DNA of 64,000 bases, taken from contig NZ_FOFD01000002.1 in the NCBI RefSeq assembly GCF_900110865.1, positions 616,835 to 680,834 of the forward strand, given 5' to 3'. Position 1 is the stretch's first letter. Every line of letters begins with the position of its first letter. Both the position numbers and the translations under genes were made by a program. This document shows positions 29,434-31,751 of the stretch, in pieces. The notes beneath the pieces are model-generated. The model was not told the origin of the DNA, did not search any database, and saw only the letters and a list, made by a program, of their open reading frames with translations. The DNA is from Natrinema salaciae (lineage in GTDB: Archaea; Halobacteriota; Halobacteria; Halobacteriales; Natrialbaceae).

Positions 29434-29455
29434 CACCCCTCGTTCAGAGTGAAAA
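29434..29455 (-). repeat. ORB-like element, outlying copy beyond the 3' end of orc1
   Basis: On the minus strand this reads TTTTCACTCTGAACGAGGGG plus TG. It matches the copy at 30946-30967 in all 22 positions and in orientation. It lies 50 bases past the orc1 stop, 1.5 kb from the other copies. Confidence 0.75.
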
Positions 29456-29504: not shown

Positions 29505-30791
29505 TCAGGAAAAGGAACCCAGATTCGCGTCGCGGTTCGCCGTCGACGGGCCGTTTTCGCCGAGTCGATCGTACGTCGGTAGCTCCTCGAGCGCGGCGTC
29601 GCGGCGGACGGCTTTGACGATGTGTTTCGGGTCAGTGACGAGTCGATGCAGGAGGTAACTCCCCTGTGATCGACCGCCGCCGGTCTTCTCGGACTCGATA
29701 ACGCCGAGAAACGCCTGTTCTTTGAGCTGGCGATAGAGTCCGTTCTCGGTGATCGGATCGTTGGCGACCAGTTCGCAGATGCCGACGTAGCGCTCGTAGA
29801 TCTCGCGGGTCTTGTAGGTCTCACGATCACCGGTGATGATACGGCTCGCGAGCGCGTACAGCGCGAGTTTCGCGTGGACGGTCGCACCGCTGGTGAGCTC
29901 CTCGATTCGATTGATCTCGGCGACCTCCTGTGCCTGTTGGATGTGATCCTCGGAGACCGTCTCGCTCCCGGTGCGGCGGGCGAGCTCTCCGGCCTCCTTG
30001 AGGATCTCGATGGCCTTGCGGGCGTCACCGTGTTTCTTGGCCGCGAGGGCCGCACAGAGCTCGATCGTCCCGTCCTCGAGGACGTCGGGCTGGAACGCGT
30101 CTTCGCGGTTGCGCATGATCTCGCGGAGTTGGGAGGCGTCGTACGGGTGAAAGAACAGCTCCCGGTGCCCGAAGCTGCTGTCGATGCGCTCGTCGAGGGT
30201 CTCTCGATACTGGACCTTGTTACTGATCCCGATGACGCCGATGTAGGCGTCCGTCTTCTGTGCCTCGCGAGCGCGGGAGAGTTGCATCAGAATGTTGCTG
30301 TTGTCCAGTTTGTCGATCTCGTCCAGGATGACGATTACCGCGTCGAAGCAGTCCTCGAGAATGCCCCAGATGTGCTGGTAGTACTCCATCGTCCCGACGC
30401 CTCGAAGCGGGATGTTCTGTTCGTACCCGGTCTGTTCTTTCAGACTGAGCGCTAACTGGCGCGTGGCACGCGTCTCGGTGTTGGCTTCGGAACAGTCGAC
30501 GTAGAGAACGGCACAATCGATATCGTTACTCCGGGCGGCATCCTGGGCGCGAGTGGCGACGTGGCGAGAGATAAGACTCTTTCCGGTGCCGGTTTTGCCG
30601 TAGATCATCACGTTGTTCGGCGGGTCCCCGCGCGTGATCGCACCGACCTCGGCAGCGACGGATTGGATCTCGTCGTCCCGCCCGACGATTCGGTCCTCGT
30701 CGGGGACGTGGCCGACGTGGAGAAGTTCCTTCCGATTGAAGATGGGGTCGTGAGATTGGAAGAGCGGGTCCCCACCGGTCTGCTCAGCCAT
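29505..30791 (-). CDS. orc1: Orc1/Cdc6-type replication initiator
   Basis: 428 residues. AAA+ ATPase with Walker A GKTGTGKS (residues 65-72) and Walker B AVIVILDEIDKLDN (151-164). Sensor-1 lies in AYIGVIGISNKVQYRETLDE, sensor-2 near HGDARKAIEILKEAGELARR, and a C-terminal winged helix at about 320-415 (DRETYKTREIYERYVGICEL to SQGSYLLHRLVTDPKH) contacts DNA. The ATP-bound form binds origin recognition boxes and opens the origin. It borders the repeat-rich non-coding region 30792-31751, its likely target. A TATA box at 30814-30821 implies a leaderless mRNA. Confidence 0.95.
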   Translation of the reverse strand: MAEQTGGDPLFQSHDPIFNRKELLHVGHVPDEDRIVGRDDEIQSVAAEVGAITRGDPPNNVMIYGKTGTGKSLISRHVATRAQDAARSNDIDCAVLYVDCSEANTETRATRQLALSLKEQTGYEQNIPLRGVGTMEYYQHIWGILEDCFDAVIVILDEIDKLDNSNILMQLSRAREAQKTDAYIGVIGISNKVQYRETLDERIDSSFGHRELFFHPYDASQLREIMRNREDAFQPDVLEDGTIELCAALAAKKHGDARKAIEILKEAGELARRTGSETVSEDHIQQAQEVAEINRIEELTSGATVHAKLALYALASRIITGDRETYKTREIYERYVGICELVANDPITENGLYRQLKEQAFLGVIESEKTGGGRSQGSYLLHRLVTDPKHIVKAVRRDAALEELPTYDRLGENGPSTANRDANLGSFS

Positions 30792-30813
30792 GTTTCCGTT
30801 CTGGAAGACAGTC

Positions 30814-30821
30814 TTTATAAA
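30814..30821 (-). promoter_or_regulatory. TATA box of orc1
   Basis: TTTATAAA, centred about 26 bases before the ATG at 30789-30791, implies transcription starting at or next to the start codon. Confidence 0.6.
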
Positions 30822-30945
30822 TCTATGGAAGGTAGTTCAGACTGATAATCGAGCAATAGAGCGTCGAAAAGCGGAGTATCGTCCGTCTTCGTCCTGATCG
30901 ACCGATCTGCCGGATGCAGACTGAACTCGGCCTCGCAGTGCGACG

Positions 30946-30967
30946 CACCCCTCGTTCAGAGTGAAAA
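30946..30967 (-). repeat. ORB-like element
   Basis: Minus-strand core TCACTCTGAACGAGGGGTG preceded by TTT. It borders the AT-rich segment on the orc1 side and is inverted relative to the three copies on the far side. Confidence 0.8.
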
Positions 30968-30992
30968 CGCGGGGATGGACGGTTCGCCGAGA

Positions 30993-31040
30993 CGATTTAT
31001 TCACAGTATTGAATGTTTTGTCATCGGATTTTATTGCATC
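30993..31040. other. AT-rich segment, candidate duplex-unwinding element
   Basis: This stretch (CGATTTATTCACAGTATTGA, then ATGTTTTGTCATCGGATTTT and ATTGCATC) is about 65 percent A+T in a GC-rich genome. It lies between inverted ORB-like elements, where origins melt. Confidence 0.6.
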
Positions 31041-31045
31041 TTCGC

Positions 31046-31155
31046 GTTCACGGTAGTCGTTCTTTCGTGTTCACGTTAGCCGTTCTTTTGCGCTCACGGT
31101 GACCGTTCGAACGAAGTCGATCACGCGGTAGCCGTTTGAACGAAATCGGTCACTA
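31046..31155. repeat. Degenerate 23-base direct repeats in the origin
   Basis: Units start at 31046 (GTTCACGGTAGTCGTTCTTT), 31069 (GTTCACGTTAGCCGTTCTTT) and 31092 (GCTCACGGTGACCGTTCGAA), with a fourth looser copy near 31120-31143. The last part also contains a diverged pair, CGTTCGAACGAAGTCGATCAC and CGTTTGAACGAAATCGGTCAC. They adjoin the AT-rich segment and may be further initiator contacts. Confidence 0.65.
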
Positions 31156-31382
31156 GACGGGGCCGGTCGCTAGACGTCGGTACGTGACGAATGGTATCGA
31201 GTTGCGTTGGAGAACGCAACAAACGATATCGGGAAATCACGTCGGGAGAGTGTCAGTTCGGAAGGAATCGACGACTGCGTTCGATCGTCCGCTCTCAAGC
31301 GACCGCCCTCGAGCGTCCGCTCCCGAGCGCACTGAATGTCGTCTGTATGCCGATCCTGTTCGACCCACCCCGTCCGAACGGC

Positions 31383-31404
31383 TTTTCACTCTGAACGAGG
31401 GGTG
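31383..31404 (+). repeat. ORB-like element
   Basis: TTTTCACTCTGAACGAGGGG plus TG on the plus strand, then a further GGGG run (31404-31408). Same sequence as the copies on the orc1 side but in the opposite orientation. Confidence 0.8.
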
Positions 31405-31480
31405 GGGGTCCCGCCACGTCCTCGCTGAGCCGTCCATCGAAGAGACGGAGAACGAAGGGAAGTTAACCCGGCCAGTGTTG

Positions 31481-31610
31481 GCCGGAGTCCAGAACAGCCA
31501 GCGTCGGCCGGAGTCCAGAACAGCCAGCGTCGGCCGGAGTCCAGAACAGCCAGCGTCGGCCGGAGCCCAGAACAGCCAGCGTCGGCCGGAGCCCAGAACA
31601 GCCGGCTTCG
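31481..31610. repeat. Five 26-base tandem repeats within the origin
   Basis: Units start at 31481, 31507, 31533, 31559 and 31585. Each begins GCCGGAGTCCAGAACAGCCA, or GCCGGAGCCCAGAACAGCC in the last two. The first three are identical and the last one differs most. The period is not a multiple of three, so it is not coding. It lies between two ORB-like elements. Confidence 0.92.
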
Positions 31611-31645
31611 GTCAGAACCGAGACGGATTCGCGCCGTCGGGTTCC

Positions 31646-31667
31646 GTATCACTCTGAACGAGGGGTG
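31646..31667 (+). repeat. ORB-like element
   Basis: Core TCACTCTGAACGAGGGGTG, preceded by GTA instead of TTT. It is the most diverged of the five copies, but only in the 5' flank. Confidence 0.78.
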
Positions 31668-31729
31668 GGAACGACTCGCGTGCGACCGCCGATCTGAACG
31701 GAGTGGAACCGACCCCACGCCACCCTCCC

Positions 31730-31751
31730 CTTTCACTCTGAACGAGGGGTG
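31730..31751 (+). repeat. ORB-like element
   Basis: CTTTCACTCTGAACGAGGGG plus TG. It is the outermost copy on this side, 84 bases from its neighbour and in the same orientation. Confidence 0.8.

Follow-up and report, generated by a model that had tools for sequence, protein, structure and literature searches.

The results of this study indicated that the region adjoining orc1 in a 64,000-nucleotide stretch of DNA (the window; C2:616835-680834 in its own genome) is very probably an additional DNA replication origin paired with its own initiator gene. In all likelihood, it serves a Natrinema-like haloarchaeon as a second chromosomal origin in the form of a self-contained replicator-initiator module. 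The locus appears to be of a known kind, the haloarchaeal orc-linked origin, judging from the sequence features of that class: a full-length orc1/cdc6 gene adjoins it, and inverted repeats (ORBs, initiator-binding boxes) occupy the intergenic region next to this gene. In haloarchaeal origins, an orc gene adjoins an AT-rich region that is framed by inverted ORBs bearing G-strings, and every initiator specifically serves the origin to which it belongs (PMC3528665, PMC3936714, PMC4010727). What appears to be new here is a rule concerning position 9 of the box and signs that the initiator controls its own gene. The elements, their uniqueness, conservation and geometry, and their covariation with the initiator family were computed directly; the features are listed in Table 1.

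Table 1 Elements of the orc1-linked locus, in window positions
Feature	Position	Strand	Remarks
Downstream ORB	29434-29452	-	52 bases past the end of orc1, just beyond the stop codon
orc1/cdc6 initiator gene	29505-30791	-	428 aa; TIGR02928, E 3.9e-117
TATA-box-like element of the orc1 promoter	30813-30820	-	conserved; context ATTTATAAAG (- strand)
G-string-less ORB-like site, TATCAGTCTGAACTACC	30831-30847	-	abuts the TATA box on its upstream side
G-string-less ORB-like site, AGTTCAGTCTGCATCCGG	30910-30927	-	TTCAGTCTGCATCCGG from 30910; conserved in most orthologues
Proximal ORB	30946-30964	-	G-string faces orc1, not the AT-rich segment
AT-rich segment, candidate duplex-unwinding element	30980-31089		between the outward-facing ORBs
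23-bp degenerate tandem repeat	31041-31108		beside the AT-rich segment
Distal ORB 1	31386-31404	+	exact core
26-bp GC-rich tandem repeat	31471-31611		between distal ORBs 1 and 2
Distal ORB 2	31649-31667	+	exact core
Distal ORB 3	31733-31751	+	exact core

The original prediction held that an identical 19-base core occurs five times near orc1. The core, TCACTCTGAACGAGGGGTG, was indeed found as five exact matches in the window, where shuffled sequences gave an expectation of 0 and where no other copy with up to three mismatches was present. Throughout the genome (4,857,017 bases in 11 contigs), the same five were the only copies with two or fewer mismatches, and thus the core is neither scattered nor a genome-wide repeat; one further similar site, with three mismatches, was located on another contig. 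The starts given for the two minus-strand copies (29434 and 30946) were correct, while those for the plus-strand copies (31383, 31646 and 31730) were 3 bases early because preceding bases had been included. All five ORBs terminate in GGGGTG, in agreement with the expectation that the run of G matches the haloarchaeal G-string, and positions 14-17 were mostly G among 133 boxes of orthologues. The copies on the orc1 side face opposite to those on the far side, as had been described, so that the G-strings point outward relative to the segment 30965-31385. No mention of the core or its half-site was found in the relevant literature.

An AT-rich segment between the facing copies had also been claimed, and the AT content of 60-base windows at this segment was 0.62 and 0.57 as compared to 0.34 for the window. 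Tandem repeats of 23, 14 and 26 bp are present between the ORBs, and these were not seen in the nearest relatives that were aligned. The bases between the boxes were unconserved, and the inter-ORB sequence diverges fast. A search of the region for Rfam families gave none.

The protein encoded by orc1 contains Cdc6 lid and winged-helix domains in addition, with Walker A at residues 65-72, Walker B at residues 155-161 and the winged-helix recognition helix TENGLYRQLKEQ at residues 348-359. It is related to the solved Cdc6/Orc1 structures of Sulfolobus and Aeropyrum (2qby and 2v1u). Natrinema species were the nearest named relatives according to this protein, which is intact and shows 93-96% identity in all 18 relatives carrying it within the genus.

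Orthologous loci (L019-L055) were fetched from GTDB genomes in order to evaluate the conservation of the arrangement. Boxes with up to three mismatches were present upstream of orc and usually also downstream, and the outward-facing pair of distal and proximal boxes with an AT-rich segment between them was observed in 33 of the 35 upstream regions tested, although in a few orthologues with long segments the AT peak did not exceed that of random segments of equal length. The downstream ORB occupied a similar place in the same orientation in most orthologues. The neighbouring genes, with gdh and citE next to the origin and the aldehyde dehydrogenase gene and maoC at the opposite end, were conserved, if incompletely, as not each gene was kept in each genome. 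Genomes carrying the initiator made up approximately half of the Natrialbaceae examined. In Natronorubrum bangense, the same origin-orc locus was found both on the chromosome (L029; NZ_CP031305.1:288694-301974) and on a megaplasmid (L030; NZ_CP031306.1:55912-69192) with identical box positions and upstream sequence, a situation explained either by recent duplication of the locus or by an error of assembly.

The pairing of box and initiator was evaluated in 125 Natrialbaceae genomes by comparing the occurrence of the core (up to two mismatches) with that of an Orc at least 85% identical. The core was present in all 60 genomes having such an Orc and in 15 of the 65 lacking it (Fisher, 9e-22, uncorrected for phylogeny, the genomes not being independent). 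Within the genus, the core was found in 19/19 genomes with the initiator and in 0/10 without it when the version of the box with G at position 9 (G9) was set aside. These counts support the proposed pairing, with the core apparently tracking this Orc family. Seven of the 15 core-positive genomes without the initiator carry a sister Orc (53-55% identical), each cluster of G9 boxes in Natrinema adjoins a sister orc, and two genomes (G076 and G077) hold both the A9-type and the G9-type systems. In boxes upstream of orc in the orc1 family, position 9 was A or C and never G (0/133), whereas all 68 boxes examined in the sister family had G there; the recognition helix also differs between the two families, being TENGLYRQLKEQ in the orc1 family and SEHRVYELLKEQ in the sister family. 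An outgroup 75% identical to the orc1 family has the same helix type together with A9. A single base at position 9 would thus tell which initiator goes with which box, a rule that is newly added here. Reading of position 9 by the helix is inferred from an alignment to Cdc6 structures, and the link between helix and base is a correlation. With the many orc genes of haloarchaea and the several origins on each chromosome, the question arises of how an initiator finds only its own origin; since the two sister families occur in the same genus, and sometimes in the same genome, with boxes differing at one position, specificity is directly testable in this system.

Inverted pairs of a related box of the TCACGCTGAACGAGGGG type were observed in two genomes without an initiator of the orc1 family (G016:C1:2836522-2836660 and G017:C1:993337-993541), possibly a third version of the box with another initiator. 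Besides, a stop codon lies inside the sister orc genes of three genomes (G008, G055 and G100), and the orthologue of another (G043) gave a match of no more than 286 residues; these observations suggest that such modules decay from time to time.

The alignment of upstream regions uncovered two further ORB-like sites at the orc1 promoter, both between the proximal ORB and the start codon, by which the original prediction is extended. The 10-base block TATCAGTCTG of the site adjacent to the TATA box was invariant in 37 of 37 usable upstream regions (nine further loci in the opposite orientation were excluded from this scoring) and always stood 55 or 56 bases before the start codon; the mean information per column was 1.7 bits within the block as compared to 0.4 outside it. 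The other site was absent in Natrialba. A single copy each of TATCAGTCTGAACTACC and TTCAGTCTGCATCCGG was present in the 885-kb contig. In the sister family, a family-specific version of the box, TACACTCT, takes the corresponding position just upstream of the TATA box. The constant spacing of a conserved box that adjoins the TATA box points to autoregulation, and the simplest reading is that the initiator probably binds its own promoter. A limited literature search found no published report of such promoter binding, and no analysis of promoter sites was found in the portion of the text of PMC3528665 consulted. The full proposal, in which autoregulation acts through promoter ORBs without G-strings, two Orc families each have their own version of the box, and specificity depends largely on whether position 9 is A or G, together with a few recognition-helix residues (TENGLYRQL versus SEHRVYELL), is put forward tentatively, with slightly less than even confidence. 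The promoter boxes provide a concrete hypothesis for the control of initiator levels in archaea, comparable to the DnaA boxes at dnaA. In bacterial dnaA/oriC, the initiator gene likewise lies beside the origin and boxes of the initiator type are present at its own promoter, but the origin sequences and control proteins are unrelated, and the autoregulation at orc1 is deduced.

The locus is distinct from the standard oriC1. With NF001625, the model of the oriC1-type initiator, the Orc1 protein scored 281 bits, which is below the cut-off of 501 bits, while this cut-off was exceeded by a protein encoded on contig C3 (ca. 287-289 kb). The boxes at the C3 locus have the form GTTTCCACTCGAAACGAAGGGGTGG; those beside orc1 are not canonical ORBs of the TTTCCA...GAAACGAAGGGG type, as the half-sites differ and the spacing is off by one base relative to the C3 box. 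Initiator, ORB, location and neighbours thus all differ from those of oriC1 near 289 kb of C3. In seven relatives with large contigs, oriC1 and the orc1-linked locus were on the same contig, separated by 0.4 to 2.8 Mb according to the numbering with circularity ignored. Because the two share a contig in these relatives, the locus is taken to be an additional chromosomal origin. The oriC1-type initiator itself (C3:287118-288764) carries an acidic low-complexity insertion of ca. 135 aa within its AAA+ part, and long open frames in seven relatives suggest that this insertion is widespread in Natrialbaceae. An intein was considered as the identity of the insertion and rejected, the letters showing an acidic low-complexity stretch.

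Among known systems, Haloarcula hispanica oriC1-cdc6A has the same combination of orc/cdc6, an AT-rich region and outward ORBs with terminal G-strings, an architecture shown to be essential there (PMC3936714). In its layout, the locus can be likened to oriC2-cdc6E/oriC2D of the same species (PMC3936714), a second chromosomal origin that also has ORBs on both sides of orc. The downstream ORBs of oriC2D have been proposed to titrate the initiator (PMC3936714), and the downstream ORB at 29434-29452 may do the same, although there is one such box here as compared to eleven in oriC2D. Wu et al. (2012) predicted orc-linked secondary origins in haloarchaea including Natrialba magadii, Haloterrigena turkmenica and Halopiger xanaduensis (PMC3528665). 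As far as the consulted text of that paper allows a comparison, these predictions are of the same type and assume the same pairing of initiator and box, and orthologues of the locus are probably among them.

An inflection of the skew had been expected at ca. 31 kb of the window. When GC, AT, purine and keto skews were computed on the full contig C2 (3,408 bases as N), no slope change stood out at the locus, and the standard oriC1 of the same genome, serving as a positive control, likewise gave no inflection. Since oriC1 was equally negative, the skew speaks neither for nor against an origin. A skew inflection is not a defining feature in multi-origin archaea.

Taken together, the architecture, the linkage to orc1, the uniqueness of the boxes, the conservation in Natrialbaceae and the co-occurrence support the predicted orc1-linked origin with cognate ORBs, as far as sequence comparison can. 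That prediction was refined in three respects: the origin would be a second one and not oriC1, the core at 29434 is situated downstream of orc1 and does not belong to the inverted pair flanking the AT-rich segment, and two additional ORB-like sites lacking the G-string are present at the orc1 promoter. In the proposed mechanism, Orc1 would bind the five ORBs as a private recognition sequence and, once bound to the outward-facing ORBs on the proximal and distal sides, would open the AT-rich segment (ca. 30980-31089), where MCM would be loaded. Orc1 would probably also occupy the two promoter sites without G-strings and thereby control its own expression, with repression as the simplest mode, and the single downstream ORB might serve as a titration site. 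The origin could be a backup beside oriC1.

Not all orc-linked ORB origins are active, and some fail in plasmid replication assays or are dormant (PMC3528665, PMC4595724, PMC5350488). An origin with functional parts that stays silent during normal growth and is used solely upon loss of oriC1 or stalling of forks would be a special case of the second chromosomal origin favoured here. Haloferax mediterranei provides proven cases of dormant orc-linked origins (PMC4595724), and this possibility fits the fast divergence between the ORBs and a genome with at least a dozen Orc homologue matches and other ORB clusters. However, the published dormant oriC4 lies in a variable context, whereas the gene neighbours are conserved here, and this conservation and the presence of the locus in approximately half of the Natrialbaceae genomes suggest sustained use; we regard dormancy as possible but rather unlikely.

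It is improbable that the locus is no origin at all but an autoregulated transcription module of the orc family, with the boxes as operators and Orc1 solely as a regulator, like Sulfolobus Orc1-2, a published non-initiator regulator (PMC9738581). While the ORB-like sites abutting the TATA box would suit such a module, the outward pairs of G-string ORBs around an AT-rich segment, hundreds of bases off the promoter, fit an origin and not an operator, and no further copies of the core occur at other genes. Haloarchaeal secondary origins are thought to derive from integrated elements (PMC3528665, PMC4441112), and the intergenic region abounds in tandem repeats that were not observed in relatives, as might be expected of a decayed remnant of an integrated plasmid origin without present function. 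This explanation is very hard to reconcile with five cores that are identical though their flanks have diverged, with the intact and highly conserved Orc of the genus relatives, and with the conserved synteny.

Other loci of the genome may represent further origins besides the orc1-linked second origin. Two divergent orc homologues accompany five copies of AACACATCGATAGAGGGG at C5:123667-128036, and another orc with an inverted pair of TTACAAACGCGACGGGGGTG is located at C2:31834-33033, ca. 615 kb away; both are putative origins. When the primers of a published plasmid-replication test in Natrinema sp. J7 were compared with the genome, only those of ARS-4 matched, at a different orc on contig C4.
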